DNA of 64,000 nt, taken from Thiocapsa rosea (GTDB taxonomy: Bacteria; Pseudomonadota; Gammaproteobacteria; Chromatiales; Chromatiaceae). Below, piece after piece: positions 2,909 to 52,040 of this stretch. The notes under the pieces are model-generated. The model made no database searches. It saw only the letters and a program-made list of their open reading frames with translations, and was not told the DNA's origin. Both the position numbers and the translations under genes were made by a program. The stretch covers positions 62,001 to 126,000 of the forward strand of contig NZ_RBXL01000001.1 in NCBI RefSeq assembly GCF_003634315.1. Direction: 5' to 3'. Position 1 is the stretch's first letter. Each line of letters starts with the position of its first letter.

Positions 2909-3101
2909 TAAACCGCGCCCGGTGTGGTAAGCGTCATTTGTCGGAGTGGCTTGGCTGCGCCGGCTCCGACGACTGTCGGAGCTGGCGCGGTTTAAAGTAT
3001 TAAAAACTCTTAAATTCTAAACCGCGTCTCGCTGGGATCGAGGATATCTCCGAAGCCAAACGCACAATGAAAACGACGCATGGCGCTCCGGACGCGGTTT
3101 A
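2909..3101 (+). repeat. Family 1 paired repeat (A unit then B unit)
   Basis: Two units in tandem: A (2909-2996) and B (3018-3101), each starting TAAACCGCG and ending CGCGGTTTA, joined by an AT-rich linker of about 21 bases. The same A-linker-B layout recurs at 39501-39695 and 46145-46335, and inverted at 3952-4142 and 18456-18646. Unit A contains an internal inverted repeat (CTCCGACGACTGTCGGAG). The right end supplies the TAA stop codon of the arsM-like gene on the minus strand (3099-3101). Confidence 0.85.
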
Positions 3102-3951: not shown

Positions 3952-4142
3952 TAAACCGCATCCAGAGCGAGATGCGTCATTTTCATTTTGCATTTGGCTT
4001 TGGAGATGCCCTCGATCTCGGTGAGACGCGGTTTAAATTTAATATTCTTTAATCTCTTAAACCGCGCCGACTCCAACACTCGTTACGTCTGCCGAAACTG
4101 ATCCCAACCAAAAACATCGCATACCGTGACGGGCGCGGTTTA
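3952..4142 (-). repeat. Family 1 paired repeat, inverted copy
   Basis: An inverted copy of the 2909-3101 element: B unit complement at 3952-4035, AT-rich linker, and A unit complement at 4058-4142. Outer ends read TAAACCGCA and CGCGGTTTA. It fills the gap between the arsM-like start and the end of the DUF1415 gene, and its right terminus is the TAA stop codon of that gene (complement of 4140-4142). Confidence 0.85.
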
Positions 4143-6186: not shown

Positions 6187-7973
6187 GCGTCACGACGGCC
6201 AACGGCTTCGAGCTCGATACCGCCGGACGACGTCTCGTCGTCGATCCGGTCACCCGCATCGAGGGACACCTGCGCTGCGAGGTGAATCTCGACGAGAACA
6301 ACGTGATCCGCAACGCGGTCAGCACCGGGACCATGTGGCGCGGGCTCGAAGTCATCCTGCGCGGCCGCGATCCGCGCGACGCCTGGGCCTTCACGGAGCG
6401 GATCTGCGGCGTCTGCACCGGCACCCACGCCCTGACCTCGGTGCGCGCGGTCGAGGATGCGCTCGGGATCGCAATCCCGGAGAACGCCAACTCCATCCGC
6501 AACATCATGCAGCTCACGCTCCAGGCGCACGACCACCTGGTGCATTTCTATCATCTGCATGCGCTGGATTGGGTGGACGTGGTCTCCGCACTCGGAGCCG
6601 ATCCAAAAGCGACGAGCGCGCTCGCGCAAAGCATCAGTGACTGGCCCAAGTCCTCGCCGGGCTATTTCCGCGACGTGCAGAATCGGCTCAAGCGCTTCGT
6701 GGAGTCGGGCCAGCTCGGACCCTTCATGAACGGCTACTGGGGCAGTCCGGCCTACAAACTGCCGCCCGAGGCCAATCTGATGGCGGTCACCCACTATCTG
6801 GAGGCGCTCGACTTCCAGAAGGAGATCGTGAAGATCCACACCGTTTATGGCGGCAAGAACCCGCATCCGAACTGGCTGGTCGGCGGGATGCCCTGCGCCA
6901 TCAATGTCGGCGGCACGGGCGCGGTCGGCGCGATCAACATGGAGCGGCTGAATCTCGTCAGCAGCATCATCGACCAGACCATCGCGTTCATCGACAAGGT
7001 CTATATCCCGGACCTGATCGCGATCGCCTCCTTCTATAAGGACTGGACCTACGGCGGCGGGCTGAGCAGTCAGGCGGTGATGTCCTACGGCGACATCCCG
7101 GATCATGCGAACGACGACTCGGCCGATAATCTGCTCCTACCGCGCGGGGCCATCATCAACGGCAATCTCAACGAGATCCACGAGATCGACCTGCGCAACC
7201 CCGAGGAGATCCAGGAGTTCGTCGACCATTCCTGGTTCAGCTACAAGGACGAGACGCGCGGTCTGCATCCCTGGGACGGGGTAACCGAGCCCAACTTCGT
7301 GCTGGGACCCAACGCCGTCGGCACGCGCACCCGCATCGAGGCGGTCGACGAGCAGGCCAAATACTCGTGGGTCAAGGCTCCGCGGTGGCGCGGTCACGCG
7401 ATGGAGGTCGGTCCGCTGGCGCGCTATGTCATCGGCTACGCCCAGGGCAACCCTGAGTTTAAGGAGCCGGTCGACAAGCTGCTGACCGATCTCGGACTGC
7501 CGCTCGAGGCAATCTTCTCGACCCTGGGGCGCACCGCCGCACGCGGGCTCGAAGCCTCCTGGGCGGCCCACAAGATGCGCTATTTCCAGAACAAGCTGGT
7601 CGCCAACATCAAGGCCGGCGATACGGCGACGGCGAATGTCGACAACTGGGATCCCAAGACCTGGCCGAAGGAGGCACGCGGTGTGGGCACGACCGAGGCA
7701 CCGCGCGGAGCGCTCGGACACTGGATCGTTATCAAGCACGGCAAAATCGAGAACTACCAGGCGGTCGTGCCGACCACCTGGAACGGCTCGCCGCGCGACC
7801 CGGCGGGGAACATCGGGGCCTTCGAGGCGTCGCTGCTCAACACCCCGCTGGCCAAGGCGGACGAGCCTTTGGAGATCCTGCGCACGCTGCACAGCTTCGA
7901 TCCCTGTCTCGCCTGTGCAACGCACATCATGGGGCCGGACGGGGAGGAGCTCACCCGCGTCAAGGTCCGCTAA
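6183..7973 (+). CDS. hupL: Uptake [NiFe]-hydrogenase large subunit HupL
   Basis: A 596-residue catalytic subunit precursor. The NiFe site ligands are in [10 protein letters not shown] (residues 73-82; C75 and C78) and DPCLACATH (573-581; C575 and C578). The 15 residues after H581 are the C-terminal extension removed by the HupD protease once nickel is inserted. It oxidises H2 in the periplasm and passes electrons through HupS to HupC and the quinone pool. Length and motifs are normal for group 1 hydrogenases. Its TAA stop (7971-7973) is also the first three bases of a family 1-type repeat (TAAAACGCG). Confidence 0.97.
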
Positions 7974-8056
7974 AACGCGTCTTGGCGTCCTTTGATGGGG
8001 TCGAGGTGAACTCAGCCTCGCCGCCCCCTTGCGAACTTGGTGGGGACGCGTTTTAG
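7971..8056 (+). repeat. Family 1-like single repeat unit after hupL
   Basis: Bounded by TAAAACGCG (7971-7979) and ACGCGTTTTAG, a variant of the TAAACCGCG...CGCGGTTTA ends seen elsewhere. The ends are inverted repeats and could fold into a hairpin between hupL and hupC, possibly lowering read-through so that more HupSL than accessory protein is made (inference). It is followed directly by AGGTGATT, the first bases of the family 2 terminus, but no family 2 body follows. Confidence 0.7.
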
Positions 8057-11372: not shown

Positions 11373-12818
<1,446 letters not shown>

Positions 12819-16850: not shown

Positions 16851-17204
16851 ATGAGACACATCACAATTGCAGTTGCAGTTGCACTCTCCTCCGCACTCGC
16901 CCTGAGCGCCTGCGGAAGCACAACCACTTCGCGGACCGGAACCGGCGCGATGCTGGGTGCCGGAACCGGCGCAGCAATCGGCTCCATGAGCGGAAACGCC
17001 GGCAAGGGAGCATTGATCGGCGCAGGCGCCGGTGCCCTGGGCGGCTACATTTACGACCAGAACCAAAGGGCAGACCGCGAGCAGTATCAAAGGCAAAACC
17101 GCAGCGACTATGGTTACGACCGGGGTTATGACCAGGGCTATGACCAGGGTCGACAAGACAGACGTTATCAGAGTGACAGGCAGAACAGTCCGTTTTGGTA
17201 CTAA
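16851..17204 (+). CDS. Glycine-zipper outer membrane lipoprotein
   Basis: A 117-residue precursor. A signal peptide ends in the lipobox LSAC (Cys 21), so the mature protein is lipid-anchored. Residues 30-68 form a glycine zipper (GTGAMLGAGTGAAIG, GALIGAGAGALGG) like the Rick_17kDa/OmpA-like 2TM family. The tail is a tyrosine- and arginine-rich repeat (YDRGYDQGYDQGRQDRRY). Such proteins usually sit in the outer membrane and affect envelope stability. The TAA stop (17202-17204) is the first codon of a family 1 repeat, TAAACCGAG. Confidence 0.8.
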   Translation: MRHITIAVAVALSSALALSACGSTTTSRTGTGAMLGAGTGAAIGSMSGNAGKGALIGAGAGALGGYIYDQNQRADREQYQRQNRSDYGYDRGYDQGYDQGRQDRRYQSDRQNSPFWY

Positions 17205-17294
17205 ACCGAGCCGGCCCGGCAGACTTGACGACTGTTGGCGCCGGCGCGGTCAAGCCGATCCAACACACGACGCATATCGCACCGGGCGCGGTTT

Positions 17295-17295
<1 letters not shown>
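17202..17295 (-). repeat. Family 1 single unit (A type, inverted)
   Basis: Bounded by TAAACCGAG and CGCGGTTTA. The internal CGCATATCGCACCGGGCGCGG matches the complement of the A unit at 39501 and 46145. It begins at the lipoprotein stop codon and its right end abuts a family 2 element without a gap. Confidence 0.75.
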
Positions 17296-17776
<481 letters not shown>

Positions 17777-17777
<1 letters not shown>

Positions 17778-18458
17778 ACTCGACATCCTGATCTGCACCT
17801 ACAACAACCCCGCCTTCCGGAGCTGACCCTTGAGGCCCTGAAGCCGCAAGCCCGCCATCGATGGATCGGGGAATCCTGGTGGTGGACAAGACTCGGGGAC
17901 CGAGCGCTGCGCCGGGATTGGCTGGCCGGCGCCGGAATCGTCCTGCGTCGCACCACGCTGGAGCACCGCGGATGGATCGAGCAGCAGCTTCTCGATGACC
18001 GGATCGGCAAACGCTTGATCTCGGACGGAGACGTGGAGATCGGCCTGCGCGCATCGCGCGCGTCGCCGAGGTCTGATACAACCCGGCATGCAGGCTGCGA
18101 CATATAATCCTTGATCATCCCGGCTCACCGCACCTCGCGGCCGTACCTGCGCCTGAGGATGGTCTTCGGCGTGGGTGCGAGCGGCCACAATACCGGGGCA
18201 CCGACCTGCACCGGCACATACCCGGCCTGGCTTTTGCACGCCGCAGGCCAATCCATGCGACTCTTACAGCAGGGACTGCGACGCACCGTCGGCGACCACG
18301 ATCACCGCCGACCCGACCGCGACATCGGGATTGCCCTCGGTTTGGTCATGGACTGGTGGTCGGCCGCGTGGCAGATGCTCCGCATGCGCCGGGCTTCGCG
18401 TCGTCGGCTGCTCGGCGGCAACCTCGCGACCCGCCGAAAACATGCGATGCGGGGCTAA
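17777..18458 (+). pseudogene. Decayed family 2-type glycosyltransferase
   Basis: Pieces of one glycosyltransferase are readable in more than one frame. The GT2 start signature DILICTYNN is at about 17784. The central block from AGAGIVLRRTTLEHRGW through IGKRLISDGDVEIGLR lies at about 17928-18048. The C-terminal block from IIPAHRTSRPYLRLRMVFG to the end is at 18111-18458 in another frame. The stretch between the start signature and the central block is far too short, so there is an internal deletion as well as a frameshift. The 5' side is abutted by a family 2 repeat, and the TAA stop at 18456 is the terminus of a family 1 repeat. It is clearly non-functional as it stands. Confidence 0.65.
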
Positions 18459-18646
18459 ACCGCGTCCAGAGCGAGAGGCTCACTTTCGAGTGCGTTCGAC
18501 GTCTGGTGCATCCACGGCCCCTAGCGGAGGCGTGATTTAAAATGATATATTTTTTAGTATCTTAAACCGCGCCGCCTCCAGCGGTCGTCTAATCCGCCGG
18601 GACCGATCCCATCCAAGAACATCGCATACCGCGCTCGGTGCGGTTG
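18456..18646 (-). repeat. Family 1 paired repeat, inverted, partly degenerate
   Basis: B unit complement (18456-about 18540) begins TAAACCGCG and ends in the degenerate CGTGATTTAA. After an AT-rich linker, the A unit complement runs from 18563 to a degenerate end (GTGCGGTT) near 18646. The remaining 175 bases before cvrA hold nothing I recognise. Confidence 0.75.
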
Positions 18647-18821
18647 ATCACCCGACCGATGCGCTGAGGAGGCTGGCGATTCGCCACCCTCGGCAACAAT
18701 CAGCACACATCCATGTGCCGCGGAAGACGCTGATGTGATCAGAGTTTCCCAACCGGCCACGTGACCGGCCTCGCGCAGCGCTTGAAGCCGCGCAGGCAAA
18801 CCGCTTTGGACGAGAGACCCG

Positions 18822-21773: not shown

Positions 21774-23177
21774 ATGCTGAACTGGGACGATCCACTCGCC
21801 ACGACCGGACCCGCCGCCCGCGCGCCCCGAGGGACCTTTGTCGTTGATCCGACCGACGCCGCCGAGGATTGGTCCGACGGCCCCACGCCCGACGCTCGGA
21901 CGACGAGCGCACCCCGACCAACCAGCGCCACCGCGCAGGTGCGCCCCGGCCACGGCCTGGTCAACAATACCGACCTGATGGCGACCGCCGGCGCGGCCCC
22001 CGTCGTCGACCCCAACCCCTTCCCCGCATACGCCGCGCATCAAAGCGAGCTGCCGATCACCGACACCCTGCTGCCGGACGAGCCGCGGACGCAGACGCAG
22101 CACCCGGACGACGGCATCGTCGGCGGCGCCACCGGTCTCGAGTCGCTCGAGATGGGCGCCGGGCGCGTGCGCGTCGACGACAAAAAGATCATCAATTGCC
22201 ACGCCGATCTCAATCAGCTCGTCCCCTTCAAATACGAGTGGGCCTGGCAGAAGTACCTCGACGCCTGCGCCAACCACTGGATGCCGCAAGAGATCAACAT
22301 GAACGCGGACATCGCGCTCTGGAAGGATCCCAACGGGCTGACCGACGACGAGCGCACCATCATCAAGCGCAATCTCGGCTTCTTCTCCACTGCCGATTCC
22401 TTGGTCGCCAACAACCTGGTGCTGGCCGTCTATCGCCACATCTCCAACCCCGAGTGCCGCCAATACCTGCTGCGCCAGGCCTTCGAGGAGGCCCTGCACA
22501 CCCACGCCTATCAGTACGTGGTCGAGAGCCTCGGACTGGACGAGGGCGAGATCTTCAACATGTATCGCGAGGTCCCTTCGGTCGCGCGCAAGGCCGAATG
22601 GGCCCTGCCCTACACCCAGCACCTGGCCGACCCGCACTTCAAGACCGGCACACCCGAGAACGACCGCAAGCTGCTGCGCGAGCTGGTCGCCTTTTATGTC
22701 ATCTTCGAAGGCATCTTCTTCTATGTCGGTTTCGTGCAGATCCTGAGCATGGGCCGGCGCAACAAGATGACCGGCACCGCCGAGCAGTTTCAATACATCC
22801 TGCGCGACGAGTCCATGCACATGAACTTCGGCATCGACGTGATCAACCAGATCAAGATCGAAAACCCGCATCTGTGGAGCCCGGAATTCAAGCAAGAGCT
22901 GGTCACCATGATCCGCGATGCCGTGACCATGGAATCGCGCTACGCCCACGACACCATGCCGCGCGGCGTGCTCGGGCTCAACGCGCCCATGTTCGAGGAA
23001 TATCTCCAGTTCATCGCCAACCGGCGCTGCGCACAAATCGGCCTGCCCGAGCAGTACCCGGGCGCAACCAACCCCTTCCCCTGGATGTCCGAGGTGCTCG
23101 ATCTGAAGAAGGAGAAGAACTTCTTCGAGACGCGGGTCACGGAGTATCAGACGGGTGGTGCGCTGAATTGGGATTAA
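21774..23177 (+). CDS. nrdB: Class I ribonucleotide reductase small subunit
   Basis: A 467-residue R2 protein that makes the radical used by NrdA to reduce ribonucleotides. GAGGAG precedes the ATG at 21774. The core starts near residue 135; the first 130 residues are a Pro/Thr/Asp-rich extension absent from most R2 proteins. Diiron ligands can be aligned as D208 (TADSL), E239 and H242 (FEEALH), and the radical tyrosine as Y246. The overall sequence is of the Chlamydia-like type ([29 protein letters not shown]). It keeps Asp and Tyr where chlamydial class Ic R2 has Glu and Phe. NrdA is not adjacent. The TAA stop is the first codon of a family 1 repeat. Confidence 0.93.
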
Positions 23178-23251
23178 ACCGCGTTTTGGCGGTTTTTTGC
23201 GGGGATTGAGCGGACGCCAGCTTCAGATGGTTCAATGCGTCACGCGGTTTA
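23175..23251 (+). repeat. Family 1 single unit after nrdB
   Basis: Bounded by TAAACCGCG (whose TAA is the nrdB stop) and ACGCGGTTTA. At 77 bases it is shorter than the A and B units, and its interior (TTTTGGCGGTTTTTTGCGG) differs from them. Confidence 0.7.
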
Positions 23252-23309
23252 AGGTTTTCGAGTCCATTGATGGGCTACGCGCATTTAGACCGGCCACCCA
23301 AAACTTAAA

Positions 23310-23378
23310 GAACTCGTGACACCCGTTCCGCGGTGTCACGCATGCTCGTGGCGCTCTGCGCCACGGACCATAATGGCC
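23310..23378 (+). repeat. Family 3 repeat, second copy
   Basis: CTCGTGACACCCGTTCCGCG, then GTGTCACGCATG and the GTGGCGC/GCGCCAC hairpin, closely matching 8206-8275. Confidence 0.65.
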
Positions 23379-23409
23379 GGACTTGCGGACAAGGCATCAT
23401 TGATGACCT

Positions 23410-23491
23410 AAACCGTGTCCGCTCGGAGACTGGCTGATTTCTCCGACACCCAAGCAGCGCGCAGAGCGCACATCACAGGGAGACGCGGTTT
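23410..23491 (+). repeat. Family 1 single unit upstream of the NADAR gene
   Basis: Begins TAAACCGTG and ends GACGCGGTTTA. The following TAATG places its end directly against the ATG of the NADAR gene at 23493, so here the element borders a start rather than a stop codon. Confidence 0.65.
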
Positions 23492-23492
23492 A

Positions 23493-23990
23493 ATGCGCAC
23501 TGAAACGAGCGTTTATGTCTCGATGACGGACGAAGAGAATCCGCTCTCCACAGTCTCGCCTCAACCATTCTCCCTCGACGACGGCGAATGGCCGACCGCC
23601 GAGCATTATGTGCTGGCCATGCAGTTCGAGGATCCCGCACTCAGGGCCGAGATCCGATCCGTCCTCGACCCGCAGCAAGCCCGCAAGCTCGCCAAGCGAC
23701 ATAAACGCCACCTCCGCAGCGACTGGGAGTCGGTGCGGCGCGTCTACATGACCCGCGCCATCTACACCCGTTGCCTCAGCCACCCCGCATCCGCACGCGC
23801 ACTCCTCGAAACCGGCGACAAACGCATCGTCGAGAGCAGCCTCTATGATTACTACTGGGGCTGCGGCCGCGACGGGCGTGGAGTCAACACCTATGGAGAG
23901 GTGCTCATGGATATTCGGGAGAAGCTTAGGTCGGCGGGGGCGGTCTCTCCGGTTCCGCCGGCCAGCCAAACTCATGCCCCACCAGACTGA
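23493..23990 (+). CDS. NADAR-domain protein (YbiA-like N-glycosidase)
   Basis: A 165-residue single-domain protein. PFSLDDGEWPTAEHYVLAMQF (residues about 26-46) and YDYYWGCGRDGRGVNTYGEV near residues 117-136 are the two signature blocks of the NADAR/YbiA family. The family includes enzymes that hydrolyse N-glycosidic bonds of riboflavin intermediates or remove ADP-ribose-type modifications (family knowledge). The acidic and tryptophan residues of these blocks are intact, so activity is plausible. I start at ATG 23493; an in-frame GTG-less extension to 23415 would lie inside the repeat. The ribosome binding site would therefore come from the repeat end (GGGAGACG). Confidence 0.8.
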   Translation: MRTETSVYVSMTDEENPLSTVSPQPFSLDDGEWPTAEHYVLAMQFEDPALRAEIRSVLDPQQARKLAKRHKRHLRSDWESVRRVYMTRAIYTRCLSHPASARALLETGDKRIVESSLYDYYWGCGRDGRGVNTYGEVLMDIREKLRSAGAVSPVPPASQTHAPPD

Positions 23991-24195
23991 GTTCGACGCA
24001 ACCGATTCGAAAGCAGATCCATTTCAACCCGAAGAAACTGCAGCAATGCCGAATGCCAACGAAAGGCGTCTAGATTTCGTCAAGTTCACCGACGGTGATC
24101 TACTCCCGCTTATCCTGGCTATTAAGTCCTATCTTATGGCGAGAGAAAAGCACCCTATCCTTGACTGCCGAAGACTCATTGATCTTCTAAGGTGA
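23974..24195 (+). CDS. Hypothetical protein truncated by a family 2 repeat
   Basis: A 73-codon frame overlapping the end of the NADAR gene. From the inner ATG at 24046 it reads as a plausible helical protein (LDFVKFTDGDLLPLILAIK, ILDCRRLIDLL) with base composition lower in GC than its neighbours. The TGA stop at 24193 lies inside AGGTGATTTCC, the left terminus of the family 2 element, so the original 3' end was probably cut off by insertion. I recognise no family. Confidence 0.4.
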   Translation: MPHQTEFDATDSKADPFQPEETAAMPNANERRLDFVKFTDGDLLPLILAIKSYLMAREKHPILDCRRLIDLLR

Positions 24196-24638
24196 TTTCC
24201 GGAAAAGGATCTACCGGAAGCGCCGCAACCAGGAAAAGTGGTCGAACGCTCTACTCGCTGTCGTTGTCAGCCTCGATCGTCGTTTCGGCCACATCGGCAG
24301 TGTCCAGGTCGCCGACCGCGACCGCCCGGGTACGCCGACTTCAGTCGGCCCCCCCGGAGCACGCCCGCACGGCGGACTGAAGTCCGCCTCCCCGGGGGCC
24401 GACTAAAGTCGGCGTACCCGGGTGTGGGGCCGACGTTTTGCGTCCGGTTGGGGAACCCAAGAGGCATGGACGAGAGGATGACCACAGCGTCGTTGTCGTC
24501 ATCGGGTTCCGGACGAACACGACAACGACAACGACAACGAAAAATTCTGCCACGATTTGCTCAAGACTGACCGCATCCGGGAGTTCGATGCCTTCCAGGC
24601 ACTCGCTGTCGGGATGACTATTCCCGGAAATCACCTTA
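24189..24638 (+). repeat. Family 2 repeat with inserted palindromes
   Basis: Terminal inverted repeats AAGGTGATTTCCGG (24189-24202) and CCGGAAATCACCTT (about 24624-24637). The left body (AAGGATCTACCGGAAG, CGCTGTCGTTGTC) and right body (GACAACGACAACG, TGCTCAAGACTGACCGCATC, GCACTCGCTGTCGGGATGAC) match 39694-39918. The centre contains three short palindromes with a GACTNNAGTC-like core between 24333 and 24416. Confidence 0.8.
24333..24416. repeat. Cluster of three GACTTCAGTC-type palindromes
   Basis: GCCGACTTCAGTCGGC, GGCGGACTGAAGTCCGCC and GCCGACTAAAGTCGGC occur in quick succession, bordered by GGTACGCCGAC and its complement GTCGGCGTACC. A related palindrome GGGCGACTGAAGTCGCCC lies at 45249-45266. 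The nested position inside a family 2 element suggests later insertion. Confidence 0.7.
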
Positions 24639-39500: not shown

Positions 39501-39695
39501 TTAAACCGCGCCCAGTGCGGTATGCGATGTTTTTGGATGGGATCGGCCCCGGCGGATTTCAGAACCGCTGGAGCCGGCGCGGTTTAAAGTATTAAAAAAT
39601 ATAAAATTTTAAACCGCACCCCTCGCCAAGGGTCGTGGATTCACCAAACTTCGAACTCACTCGAAAGTTAGCATCTCGCTCTGGACGCGGTTTAG
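39501..39695 (+). repeat. Family 1 paired repeat (A then B), best-preserved copy
   Basis: A unit 39501-39588 (TAAACCGCGCCCAGTGCGGT ... GGCGCGGTTTAAA), AT-rich linker, and B unit 39610-39695 (TAAACCGCACC ... GGACGCGGTTTAG). Its right end overlaps the left terminus of a family 2 element (TTTAGGTGATTTCC). Confidence 0.85.
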
Positions 39696-39918
39696 GTGAT
39701 TTCCGGAAAAGGATCTCCCGGGAGAGCCGCAACCAGGACAAGTGGTCGAGGGCTCTTCTCGTTGTCGTTGTCGTTGTCGTTGTCGGATTCCGGACGAATA
39801 CGACAACGACAACGACAACGACAAATACTGCGGCGGTTTGCTCAAGACTGACGGCATCAGGGCCTCAATGCCTTCCAGGCACTCGCTGTCGGGATGACTA
39901 TTCCCGGAAATCGCCTTA
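39694..39918 (+). repeat. Family 2 repeat, compact intact copy (about 225 bp)
   Basis: Terminal inverted repeats AGGTGATTTCCGGAAAAG and TTCCCGGAAATCGCCTT. Inside, a run of CGTTGTC (39757-39785) faces CGACAAC repeats (39801-39825) across the GATTCCGGACGAATA spacer, so the whole could fold as a long hairpin. There is no coding capacity. The size and structure resemble a MITE. Confidence 0.85.
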
Positions 39919-45190: not shown

Positions 45191-45260
45191 GCAGGGCCAT
45201 GCAGCGCAAGCGCCGGAACGCGGGGTTCAGGCCGGATTTGATCGCGGTGGGCGACTGAAG

Positions 45261-45326
45261 TCGCCCCTACGTCGCCCCTACGTCGCCCCTACGTCGCCCC
45301 TACGTCGCCCCTACATCGCCCCTACA
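45261..45326. repeat. Tandem repeat, 11-bp unit, six copies
   Basis: TCGCCCCTACG repeated six times (last two end in ACA/CA), preceded by the palindrome GGGCGACTGAAGTCGCCC (45249-45266). The last unit contains the TAG stop codon of cbiM (complement of 45322-45324). The array fills the gap between cbiM and mlaE. Confidence 0.9.
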
Positions 45327-45975
45327 CGGTCGTACGCTCGACCGTCAAAAGGCGATCGCTTGCAACGACCGGGAGCAGCTCGGGACGCACGGTCAAGAGA
45401 AGACGCAAGGTCGCAGCGGTCATCGCACCTTCCACGAGCATGACCGGGATCTGAACGATCAGGATCAATTTGGCCGCCACCAGGAATTCGCTTCCGCTCA
45501 GCGCAAGGACGCCGGCCACCGACACGGCGGACACGCCGAACGACAAGGCACCGACGAGGAAACCAATGACGAGCACCGTCGCCGAGCGAGGAGAGACGTC
45601 CGAGCGCACCAAGAACCGATGCGCGAGCAAGCCGATCACGACCGCCGGAAGGGCTAGATTGAGTGTATTGACCCCGATCACGGTCAGACCGCCGAACCCG
45701 AAAAAGACCGCCTGCAGCAGCAACCCGACCAGGATCGCCGGAAAGGCGGCCCAGCCGAGCAGCAAGCCCATCAGTCCGGTCAGCATCAGATGGGCGCTCG
45801 ACGGACCGACCGGTACATGGATGAGAGATGCGATGAAAAAGACGGCCGTCAGAAGCCCGGCACGCGGGATGGACTCGGTATCGAGCGCGCTCAACCCCCG
45901 AGCGACGCCGGCAACCGCAAGCATGGATGCGCCGATCAAGACCGGCGCACCGAGAACACCGTCGACGATGTGCAT
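45322..45975 (-). CDS. CbiM/NikM-like cobalt or nickel transporter component
   Basis: A 217-residue membrane protein of ECF-type metal importers. I start at the ATG at 45975 because the family begins Met-His (MHIVDGVLG), where the N-terminal amine and His2 bind the metal; a frame to 46005 would add ten residues. A second histidine block (HVPVGPSSAHLM) completes the metal site, followed by several hydrophobic helices. Nickel is more likely than cobalt because nikR is nearby and the hydrogenase needs it (inference). No CbiQ/CbiO partners are adjacent, which is odd for an ECF transporter. The stop lies in an 11-bp tandem repeat. Confidence 0.75.
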   Translation of the reverse strand: MHIVDGVLGAPVLIGASMLAVAGVARGLSALDTESIPRAGLLTAVFFIASLIHVPVGPSSAHLMLTGLMGLLLGWAAFPAILVGLLLQAVFFGFGGLTVIGVNTLNLALPAVVIGLLAHRFLVRSDVSPRSATVLVIGFLVGALSFGVSAVSVAGVLALSGSEFLVAAKLILIVQIPVMLVEGAMTAATLRLLLTVRPELLPVVASDRLLTVERTTV

Positions 45976-46144: not shown

Positions 46145-46335
46145 TAAACCGCGCCCGGTGCGATATGCGTCATGTGTTGGAATGGCTTGGCCGCGCCAGC
46201 CCCGACGACTGTCGGAGCTGGCGCGGTTTAAAGTCTTAAAAAATATTAAACTCTAAACCGCGTCTCACCGGGGTCGAGGACATCTCCGAAGCCATACGAA
46301 ATGAAAACGACGCATCTCGCTCCGGACGCGGTTTA
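46145..46335 (+). repeat. Family 1 paired repeat (A then B)
   Basis: A unit 46145-46231 closely matches 2909-2996 (including the CCCCGACGACTGTCGGAG region), AT-rich linker, and B unit 46254-46335 matching 3018-3101. It lies between the divergent cbiM and DUF2076 genes and borders no stop codon. Confidence 0.85.
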
Positions 46336-46989: not shown

Positions 46990-47427
46990 ATGTCTACTGT
47001 CGAGGAAACCGATCGCGAGGAGACCATCCGCTTCAGTGTCTCCCTGCCCCGCGCCCTGCTGGACGAGCTTGATCGACGCGTCGTCAAGAAGGGTTACGCC
47101 TCGCGCTCCGAGCTGGTGCGCGACCTGATCCGGGAGCGGATCGTGGAAGAGACCTGGGAGCGCGGCGACGTGGAGGTCGCGGGCGTGCTCACCATCGTCT
47201 ACGACCATCATCAACGCGAGCTCACCCAGCACATTCTGGACATCCAGCATCGCCAGTACATCCACGTGGTCGCGACAACCCATGTCCACATGGACCATCA
47301 CAACTGTCTGGAGACCATCATCATCCGCGGCATGCCAGCCGAGATCGAGCGGATGAGTCTGGAGATCGGGGGGTTGCGGGGGGTGCGGTTCTCGGAGTTG
47401 ACGCGGGCCTCGCGCATCCAGAACTGA
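46990..47427 (+). CDS. nikR: Nickel-responsive regulator NikR
   Basis: A 145-residue ribbon-helix-helix repressor. [22 protein letters not shown] (within residues 13-34) is the DNA-binding domain. [17 protein letters not shown] (residues about 96-112) contains the His and Cys nickel ligands of the ACT-like domain, and the upstream H78-type histidine lies in the YDHHQRELT segment. GAGAGG precedes the ATG at 46990, an alternative being 46969. It likely represses nickel uptake when nickel is plentiful. The TGA stop falls in TGAACCGCG, a degenerate family 1 terminus. Confidence 0.9.
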
Positions 47428-47631
47428 ACCGCGCTAAACCGCGTCCGGTGTTATCGGAGATCGCCGAGTCGATAGAGATGCTGAAATAACCTTGATGCGC
47501 TTGAGCCGACGCGGTTTAGGATAAGAAAAGCAATATCTTATAATTCTTGAACCGCGTCGACTCCGGCGTCTTTTAGTCGGAACAAGAGCGACCCTATCCG
47601 AGATGTCCAAAGGTCATGACGGACGCGGTTC
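47425..47631 (+). repeat. Family 1 paired repeat, divergent
   Basis: TGAACCGCG (47425-47433) is followed at once by TAAACCGCG (47435), so a nested or double terminus is present. The first unit ends GACGCGGTTTA at 47518. The second begins TGAACCGCG (47548) and ends GGACGCGGTTCA at 47631. The right end lies inside the coding end of the transglutaminase gene. Confidence 0.7.
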
Positions 47632-48516
47632 AATCGGCGTGACGGCTAGGGTTTCTTCGAGCTCCGGCACCGATCCGTCGCTGCGGCAGGTCTGCCGCAG
47701 CGGTTGCACGTCGCCTGCATCGCGCCCGACGGCTACCCGCATGTAGGTCGCGTCGGCGAGCAGGCCCATCGACGGGTCGACGCCCCGCCAGCCGCCACCC
47801 GGGATCAGCACCTCGGCCCAGTGATGGAGCCTCTGCTCGCGGGGTTCCGTGCCCGGCGGATCTTCGTCGTCCGGGTCGAAATAGCTTGCGTCCAGATACC
47901 CGGAGACGAATCGCGCCGGGATGGACCACTGTCGCATCAGGGCAATCAAGAGGTGCGCCAGATCGGCGGCGCAGCCGCGCCCGGCATCGAACAGCGCCGG
48001 CAGTGCCCTCACCGGCCGCTCGACCTCCGGGTCGAACGGCGTCACCGACTGAATCCATGCGCTCGCCTCCTGCACCTGGTCCAGGAGTGGTCGATCATCA
48101 CGCAGGATCGGCACCCGGTGTCCGCAGATCTGATCGGGCAGCGCGGGGGTCAGTGGCCCTTGATGCAGGACGAAGTCCCACAGGCGCGGCGCCTGATGGA
48201 GGGCGTCGTCGATCCAGGCGCGTTCGCGTGCCTGCGCAATCACCGGGAAATCGAAAGGATTGCTGCGCAGGGTCTCCACCTCCGCCCGCATGGTGAAGGC
48301 AAGCTCCCGGTGCGCCCCCATCACCGCGAAATGATGCGAGAGGTTGCCAAACCCGTCCCGGCAGGCGGCAACGCCGGCGTCGGGTGCCACCGAGAGCTGG
48401 ATCTGCAGGAGCGACTGACTCTCGTCGTCCCATGGCGCCAGTCGGATCTGGACGTGGTGCTCGCGTGCAGGGGCCGCGAAGTGGATCCGACAAACCCGCT
48501 CGATCTGATATCTCAC
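47614..48516 (-). CDS. Transglutaminase-like domain protein
   Basis: A 300-residue protein. An N-terminal beta-rich domain precedes a transglutaminase/papain-like core with the Cys motif in GRGCAADLAHLLIALMR (residues about 173-189), His in LHHWAEVLIPGGGW and Asp in GVDPSMGL. It belongs with the alpha-E and ATP-grasp genes in one operon that recurs in many bacteria and is thought to form or modify peptides (family knowledge). The start is GTG, overlapping alpha-E (GTGA). The last residues (EPRPS) are encoded by a family 1 repeat. Confidence 0.85.
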   Translation of the reverse strand: MRYQIERVCRIHFAAPAREHHVQIRLAPWDDESQSLLQIQLSVAPDAGVAACRDGFGNLSHHFAVMGAHRELAFTMRAEVETLRSNPFDFPVIAQARERAWIDDALHQAPRLWDFVLHQGPLTPALPDQICGHRVPILRDDRPLLDQVQEASAWIQSVTPFDPEVERPVRALPALFDAGRGCAADLAHLLIALMRQWSIPARFVSGYLDASYFDPDDEDPPGTEPREQRLHHWAEVLIPGGGWRGVDPSMGLLADATYMRVAVGRDAGDVQPLRQTCRSDGSVPELEETLAVTPIEPRPS

Positions 48517-51810: not shown

Positions 51811-51834
51811 GTCGAGTCTCTCATTGGGGGAAAG

Positions 51835-51964
51835 CTTCCAGCTTCCAGCTTCCAGCCTCCAGCCTCCAGCTTTCAGCTTTCAGCTTTCAGCTTTCAGCTT
51901 TCAGCTTCCAGCTTCCAGCCTCCAGCGCCCAGCCGTTAGCCGTTAGCCGTTAGCCTTTAGGCGT
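51835..51964. repeat. Heptanucleotide minisatellite between trkH and trkA-like
   Basis: CTTCCAG, CCTCCAG and CTTTCAG units in tandem (about 51836-51932), then CCGTTAG units (about 51933-51955). There are about 17-18 seven-base units in all. The array lies just upstream of the trkA-like start on the minus strand. It has no coding capacity and length variation is expected. Confidence 0.9.
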
Positions 51965-51966
51965 TA

Positions 51967-52040
51967 CTTTAGGTGATTTCCGGGAATCAGCATCCCGACT
52001 GCGCAGACGATTCGGCCGGAAGTGATGCCAACGGTCGTCG
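51967..52040 (+). repeat. Family 2 left-end fragment
   Basis: TTTAGGTGATTTCCGGGAAT matches the family 2 left terminus. The following bases (CAGCATCCCGACTGCGCAG) differ, so this is a truncated or recombined copy. The rest of the gap to trkH contains TCGTCGCGAAGCGGCGCTCC with its near complement GTCGTCGCTTCGCGACGA, a hairpin-like pair also present at about 17450 and 17705. Confidence 0.55.

Follow-up and report, generated by a model that had tools for sequence, protein, structure and literature searches.

A MITE-like repeat of Thiocapsa rosea whose ends coincide with stop codons, probably through a YTAR target preference

The 64,000 nucleotides of the Thiocapsa rosea genome analysed here (contig NZ_RBXL01000001.1 of assembly GCF_003634315.1, positions 62,001 to 126,000; hereafter the window) contain a short repeat whose ends fall exactly on the stop codons of several genes. 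It is likely that this repeat is a non-autonomous MITE-like element which targets the tetramer YTAR, and that its accumulation at stop codons is the outcome of target preference and purging.

Structure, copy number and distribution of the repeat

The repeat is 84–86 bp long in 126 of the 138 copies sampled, rounded to about 84 bp below. It starts with TAAACCGCG(C/T)C and ends with the reverse complement of this start, giving an 11-bp terminal inverted repeat, TAAACCGCGYC, around a GC-rich interior that is variable in sequence at a nearly fixed length. In the whole genome (6.1 Mb, 64% G+C) 570 copies with exact termini at the right spacing were found, and none in the reversed control. The repeat occurs singly or as tail-to-tail pairs of about 193 bp with an AT-rich linker of about 22 bp; 41 of the sampled units are pairs, and their AT-rich linkers measure 22–23 bp in 33 of 45 joins. 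Head and tail can be told apart in the element, and 38 of the 41 pairs were scored as head-tail/tail-head, a figure that is partly circular because the scoring profile was trained on those pairs. It shares its small size, its repetition and its terminal inverted repeats with TA-duplicating bacterial MITEs, and the best reading is that it represents a new MITE-like family of the Chromatiaceae.

The element was found in eight out of 11 genomes of the genus, the genome of the window included. At the family level it is present in 28 of 194 sampled genomes, belonging to 10 of 61 genera, and from its presence and absence between species it is presumably mobile. Exact-match copy numbers are high in a patchy manner, in genera g19 (80), g33 (269), g35 (46, 30 and 29) and g57 (94, 76 and 35), and the exact match is absent from 166 of the 194 sampled family genomes. 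This patchy distribution suggests transfer or repeated loss.

Coincidence of repeat ends with stop codons

The sample used for counting consisted of the window and 40 × 20 kb (864 kb in total), in which our own codon-usage caller predicted 737 genes that were not curated. Detection allowed at most two mismatches over both 9-bp termini and gave 138 elements, against one in the reversed-sequence control. There are 186 outer ends, 185 of them scorable, and for 96 of the 185 the stop of a convergent gene lies between −400 and +85 bp. The end is placed exactly on the stop (distance 0) in 46 of the 185, and every other distance was seen at most three times. The coincidence with stop codons, which the first-pass annotation had noticed in the window, is therefore real and genome-wide, the tabulated distances showing a sharp peak at zero over the 864 kb.

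The elements form 91 insertion units, with a stop at one end in 36, at both ends in five (41 of 91), and at neither end in 49 intergenic units; a single unit is located inside a gene. Units between convergent genes make up 26 of the 91, compared to 115 of 696 among all adjacent gene pairs. The repeat may end the transcription of such genes, as the first-pass annotation had suggested, but the base-pair test of the stem gave no strand signal. The genes ending in an element (46 of the 737 called) use TAA in 43 cases and TGA in three; in the other genes TGA is the most common stop (467), followed by TAA (124) and TAG (100).

Gene families in the window were assigned from Pfam, and stops were taken from the codon-usage caller with a frame check. 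Seven sites had been listed at first, and for five of them the stop codon does coincide, to the exact position, with the three bases that open an element end. One is the TAA of nrdB (21774..23177, + strand), encoding the small subunit of ribonucleotide reductase (PF00268, E 4.8e-92), which opens a single element of 77 bp at 23175..23251 (+); the best named relatives of NrdB are from Thiohalocapsa halophila (80%) and Imhoffiella purpurea (79%), the window genome's own records possibly being excluded. The paired units at 2909..3101 (halves 2909–2994 and 3018–3101, with an AT-rich linker) and 3952..4142 (halves 3952–4035 and 4058–4142) carry at their right ends the minus-strand stops of a methyltransferase gene (3099–3101) and a DUF1415 gene (4140–4142), respectively. 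A single element with variant termini, TAAAACGCG, at 7971..8055 (+) begins with the stop codon of the gene for the large subunit of a NiFe hydrogenase (7971–7973), and a degraded element of 94 bp with the left end TAAACCGAG at 17202..17295 (+) begins with that of a glycine-zipper protein gene (17202–17204). The latter was left out of the genome counts because its length of 94 bp and its mismatched end are beyond the detection limits.

The two other sites need qualification. The first three bases of the paired unit at 18456..18647, whose right end reads CGGTTGA, close an open frame of 116 codons that was first described as a glycosyltransferase remnant; it does end on the element's TAA, but it is unconfirmed as a gene because its coding score is weakly positive and the frame has no Pfam match. 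The stop of nikR is the TGA at 47425–47427 as originally written, but it lies within an extra 10-mer, TGAACCGCGC (47425..47434, +), which is a tandem extra copy directly before the element. The element proper, a paired unit at 47435..47632 whose second half ends in CGCGGTTCA, starts 10 bp past the start of the nikR stop, and the stop of a transglutaminase-like gene (47614–47616, −) is found 16 bp inside this unit. The same arrangement with an extra 10-mer is present at positions 12116–12125 of locus L032 in the host genome (G000) and in G001, G003, G004 and G008, and in G009 as TGAAGCGCGC, and G006 has one copy of the 10-mer only. Elements away from stops also occur in the window, namely a single element at 23409..23492 (+) with no stop codon at the element, and paired units at 39502..39694 and 46145..46335 with neither end on a stop.

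Other repeats were seen as well. A second family, (T)TAGGTGATTTCCGG or TTAAGGTGATTTCCGG with GTCGTT arrays, is located at 17287–17387, 24187–24281, 39686–39785 and 51971–52010, and adjoins the right end of the element directly at 17287 and 39686. Tandem arrays are formed by an 11-bp unit, GTCGCCCCTAC, at 45249–45336 and by the 7-bp unit AGCTTCC/AGCTTTC at 51819–51972. A stretch of about 1.3 kb at L036 10486–11804 has two further copies in the genome at 100% identity and is probably a recent IS.

Target sequence and empty sites

The insertion target is YTAR, as the left-hand flanking base is Y and the right-hand one R in 86 of 93 units. Among the units with one end at a stop, A or G follows the far end in 35 of 36, and in 20 of 21 after removal of 15 single units with a linker-like far flank; the rejoined stop would therefore be TAA or TAG. 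R beyond the end is usual away from stops too (49 of 52).

Synteny was read in ten genomes of the same genus for 26 units in five regions. Both flanks could be mapped in at least one relative for 18 of the 26, resulting in 72 cases, of which 41 have a filled length, 16 are short but not clean and 15 are clean empty sites (seven sites). A single TA in the empty site as opposed to two in the host genome was observed in 10 of the 15 clean cases, and duplication of the TA target on insertion is thereby shown at five of the seven clean sites. The remaining five cases come from two sites, the methyltransferase end and the unit at 18456, where the relatives have TGA and a junction without TA.

The DUF1415 site is clean and empty with a single TA in G004, G005, G006 and G008, where the gene ends with TAG or TAA at the same codon. 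Here, G005 reads C-TA-CAAACAGG and the host genome C-TA[element]TA-AAAACAGG, and the base after TA in the empty site is C and not R. At L032 13953–14143, G005 has a single TA and a single element is present in G008; in four relatives the gene on the minus strand ends with TAG at an unchanged codon position. The methyltransferase-end unit is absent in G005 and G009, with TGA at the same codon, and the unit at 18456 is missing in G003, G004 and G005. At nrdB the site is filled also in G001, G003, G004, G005 and G008, where the terminal 10 bp match and the interior has diverged; a decayed element is found in G006 and G009, and in G002, G007 and G010 the element is absent and TGA occupies the same codon. 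TGA at the same codon and absence of the element is likewise seen for the glycine-zipper orthologues in G005 and G008.

At the six clean empty sites located at confirmed gene ends, the relatives already stop at the codon in question, with TAG or TAA at five and TGA at one. The original wording, that the repeat termini supply the stop codons, was thus overstated: a stop is in place without the element at all six readable gene-end sites.

These observations can be accommodated by a simple mechanism. The element would enter YTAR at its TA dinucleotide, which would be duplicated. YTAR is rare at 64% G+C, and an insertion inside a gene would break the gene and then presumably be lost. A stop of the form Y-TAA or Y-TAG would itself be a target, and since insertion would leave TA followed by the first A of the element, the stop would stay at the same codon. 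Where the stops of convergent genes overlap in one YTAR, both would be kept, one per end. With a YTAR target and loss from gene interiors, the peak at stop codons would reflect target preference together with purging; any additional preference for 3′ ends would be modest at most. Points against this explanation include the two of seven clean sites with TGA and no TA, the C after TA at the empty DUF1415 site, and the conserved ends and fixed length at old sites, which go beyond insertion alone.

The same stop can be occupied by different units in different species, as seen at L041 5636–5828, L041 19010–19092 and L032 13953–14143; at L041 19010 a single element is found in the host genome and G004, and another pair in G009. 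This suggests repeated insertion or exchange at one site.

Conservation and co-variation of the ends

Six shared sites are occupied in three or more genomes and show no sign that one unit replaced another; in these, the terminal 11 + 11 positions are 96% identical (1342 compared) and the interiors 74% (3828 compared). The corresponding values for all nine sites are 92% and 71%; these mix in three sites with different units between species, which the six-site figures separate. The identity of the ends is inflated because the ends had passed a mismatch filter (at most three mismatches at the far end), and decayed copies exist, as those of nrdB in G006 and G009.

The two ends also change together. 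Among 60 stop-linked copies at 19 sites, position 2 of the ends is A/A in 46, G/G in 11 and mixed in three. In the copies at the hydrogenase stop, position 2 of both ends is A in the host genome, G004 and G005 and G in G001 and G003, and the far end is unrecognised in G009. The site at L041 18368–19012 shares the pattern of the hydrogenase gene, with A/A in the host genome and G004 and G/G in G001 and G003. The changes are coupled, TAA..TTA becoming TGA..TCA, the stop going from TAA to TGA with the far arm following. Since TA duplication cannot yield TG..CA, they look like changes made in place, and since the switch is found in the same two species at either site, they may go back to one ancestor. 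Position 10 pairs in 88% of 145 copies compared to 48% after shuffling.

As the ends change together, the stop codon may sit in the base of a conserved hairpin. It is possible, though less likely than not, that an inserted element is retained at the 3′ end of the gene because it works as a hairpin (a terminator, a 3′-end stabiliser or a DNA cruciform) with the stop in the stem base. Such retention is compatible with insertion at YTAR as a second step, and is consistent with the six-site contrast between ends and interiors, the coupled changes at position 2 and the pairing at position 10. Orientation points the same way, the head being at the stop in all 17 single elements that could be oriented with confidence and have a stop at exactly one end, but this polarity was downgraded because most of them look like degraded pairs, in which the head-outward arrangement is built in, and about six are clean. 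Moreover, single elements 1–200 bp from a stop face it with the head in five cases and with the tail in eight, and low-confidence single elements at stops are evenly divided (head three, tail three).

The folding data also speak against such a hairpin. In the transcript sense, the stem has as many G-U as A-C mispairs (17:17), which does not single out RNA. Interiors fold little better than shuffled sequence (mean z −0.5; 60 of 76 elements). The sense strand at stops folds better (−36.3 vs −32.7, 28 elements), but this lower energy goes with the orientation of the head and disappears when expressed as a z-score. Rfam gave no match above the gathering score in the window. A terminator scan of 22900–23600 returned one terminator-like site, at 23340–23315 (−), outside the element and at the chance rate. 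The more specific proposal that the stop codon forms the base of a paired hairpin, that stop and far arm co-evolve in place (UAA..UUA to UGA..UCA) and that the paired form serves two convergent genes, one with each end, is tentative and rather unlikely. Any function at the 3′ end would be a later addition to insertion.

Template switching between inverted repeats is a mutational mechanism that copies changes from one arm to the other. Arms kept matched in this way would show coordinated changes without strand preference, as seen here; however, template switching homogenises arms and would not hold them near one sequence while the interiors drift, and we consider it doubtful as the explanation. 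Both selection acting on a hairpin and template switching are possible sources of the coupled changes.

Target availability and effect on the genes

Returning to insertion at YTAR, we asked how far the availability of this target accounts for the peak. Outside elements, non-coding YTAR occurs 107 times at stops and 686 times elsewhere (13.5% at stops), whereas 41 of 90 units are at stops, which are thus over-used. A local comparison was made downstream of 652 element-free genes, where YTAR lies on the stop in 104 and occurs 34, 69, 96 and 160 times in the next 20, 40, 60 and 100 bp. The corresponding numbers for element ends are 46 on the stop vs 12, 17, 23 and 29. The resulting odds ratio is not significant within 20 bp downstream (1.25, p 0.59) and rises to 1.80 within 40 bp (p 0.09), 1.85 within 60 bp (p 0.04) and 2.44 within 100 bp (p 0.0009). 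Most of the peak at stops is thus explained by target availability together with the presumed loss of harmful insertions, and the modest residual excess could be due to avoidance of promoters or to a true preference for 3′ ends.

The first-pass annotation had proposed, as one of two options, that the element inserts at stop codons. The placement is exact, but recognition of stop codons is not needed because the target is YTAR and the commonest tolerated YTAR in this 64% G+C genome is a stop codon; a 2.4-fold excess within 100 bp remains. That the mobilising enzyme specifically recognises stop codons or gene 3′ ends is improbable. This would fit the over-use of stops relative to non-coding YTAR, the excess within 100 bp, the occupation of one stop by different units across species and the TGA at two of seven clean empty sites, but no excess is seen within 20 bp, 49 of the 91 units lie between genes with neither end on a stop, and a clear YTAR context is found away from stops too.

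The effect on the proteins was followed in 20 genes, 19 of them with orthologues and two with the stop in the extra 10-mer. Of 76 comparisons with element-free orthologues, 56 show the stop at an unchanged codon position, similar to the control (214 of 284 for 36 genes of the same regions), and all 52 comparisons with an element end at the stop keep the stop position. Element ends were scored here with two mismatches allowed, so that a few chance or decayed ends are counted, namely those of G003 at L039 5904, G008 at L039 14519, G006 and G009 at nrdB and G010 at L041 18368. The earlier suggestion that the protein is left intact agrees with this for most genes, and the repeat appears to land in existing stops and rarely to move them. 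The 56 same-position orthologues use TGA in 28, TAG in 17 and TAA in 11 cases; for comparison, TGA makes up 7 of 67 where the control gene of the host genome ends in TAA or TAG. The surplus indicates that some targets were maybe not TAA or TAG, or that stop types changed around insertion.

Ten of the 20 differing comparisons come from one gene, L032 13125–13955, where the frame of the host genome differs near the end and runs to the element's TAA, and nine of ten relatives stop five codons earlier with TGA. This gene favours the reading that the element creates new stops, truncating or extending genes, which is very improbable given that element-free orthologues stop at the same codon at the control rate and half of the exceptions stem from this gene.

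Mobilisation and relation to known elements

A TA-duplicating IS630-type transposase would be the likeliest mobiliser. IS630-type and Y1 transposases were considered as the autonomous partner and rejected, as the element ends did not match at the loci searched: seven PF13358 loci are without bracketing element ends, and nine PF01797 loci (1.5-kb flanks) showed no flanking set of elements. One PF01797 locus (L248) is accompanied by a related element at a distance of 1.3 kb, on a single side, and another (L253) has one-mismatch 9-mers on both sides without the YC extension, taken as chance. Twelve long intervals (300–3500 bp) between orphan ends were found in the host genome and its relatives; two of the four long intervals of the host genome were inspected by eye (L046 and L061), and their products include no obvious transposase. 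The repeat shares the tested characters of TA-duplicating MITEs, except that no autonomous partner was found among the PF13358 and PF01797 loci and the orphan-end intervals inspected.

TA-duplicating bacterial MITEs such as Correia/NEMIS, ERIC/RU-1 and RUP are described as shorter than about 200 bp, often intergenic and present in many copies (PMC2229807). The repeat resembles them in its terminal inverted repeats, TA at the ends, target duplication and high copy number, and differs from the elements of that review in its GC-rich, variable interior of near-fixed length, the AT-rich linker of the pairs and the terminal sequence TAAACCGCGYC; placement at stop codons is not mentioned in the portion of the review available to us. 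MITEPlu5 of Photorhabdus, with 552 complete copies mostly of one length (123 bp), also duplicates a TA target and has ends similar to those of IS630-type elements and a strong predicted fold, but its sequence is well conserved, and the accessible part of that paper does not mention stop codons as sites (PMC6267812).

Of 58 genes that overlap BOX repeats of Streptococcus pneumoniae, 36 have their stop encoded by the repeat, and comparison with orthologues gave no strong evidence of truncation in the sections consulted (PMC3049150). BOX is modular (boxA/B/C), whereas the stop of the present repeat is exactly the first codon of the terminus and comes from the TA target. REP/BIME and CGTC-tagged repeats are likewise inverted dimers with a head and a tail at high copy number, but they are palindromes of 20–40 bp with an unpaired GTAG or CGTC tag, and the repeat has 84 bp, paired 11-bp termini and TA duplication (PMC3733652). 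A REP-type hairpin of 20–40 bp with GTAG was rejected as a classification, as the repeat measures 84–86 bp and its end consensus lacks GTAG; no RAYT (Y1 transposase) flanked by the repeat was found at the nine PF01797 loci. The excerpts of PMC2759123, PMC6382973 and PMC4853749 describe MITE-like elements that interrupt genes or are fused to them, rather than elements placed on stop codons, and the term "stop codon" is absent from PMC10969869. No report of this repeat family was found among the matches listed in open-licence papers. What appears new is that the exact placement at stops is explained by the target and was checked on empty sites, and that stop and far arm change in a coupled manner.

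Implications

The case illustrates how a parasite whose target is very short can settle on the stop codons of a GC-rich genome and leave the proteins mostly intact. In the 864-kb sample, the 3′ end of about one gene in sixteen (46 of 737) has been rewritten in this way, and annotators should be aware that conserved motifs at gene ends can be insertions. The coupled changes of the ends offer a testable case of a mobile element turning into a 3′-end structure, with hundreds of natural replicates and with element-free relatives for comparison. If the stop codon does form the base of a hairpin, a single module would combine the stop of translation with a structure at the 3′ end.
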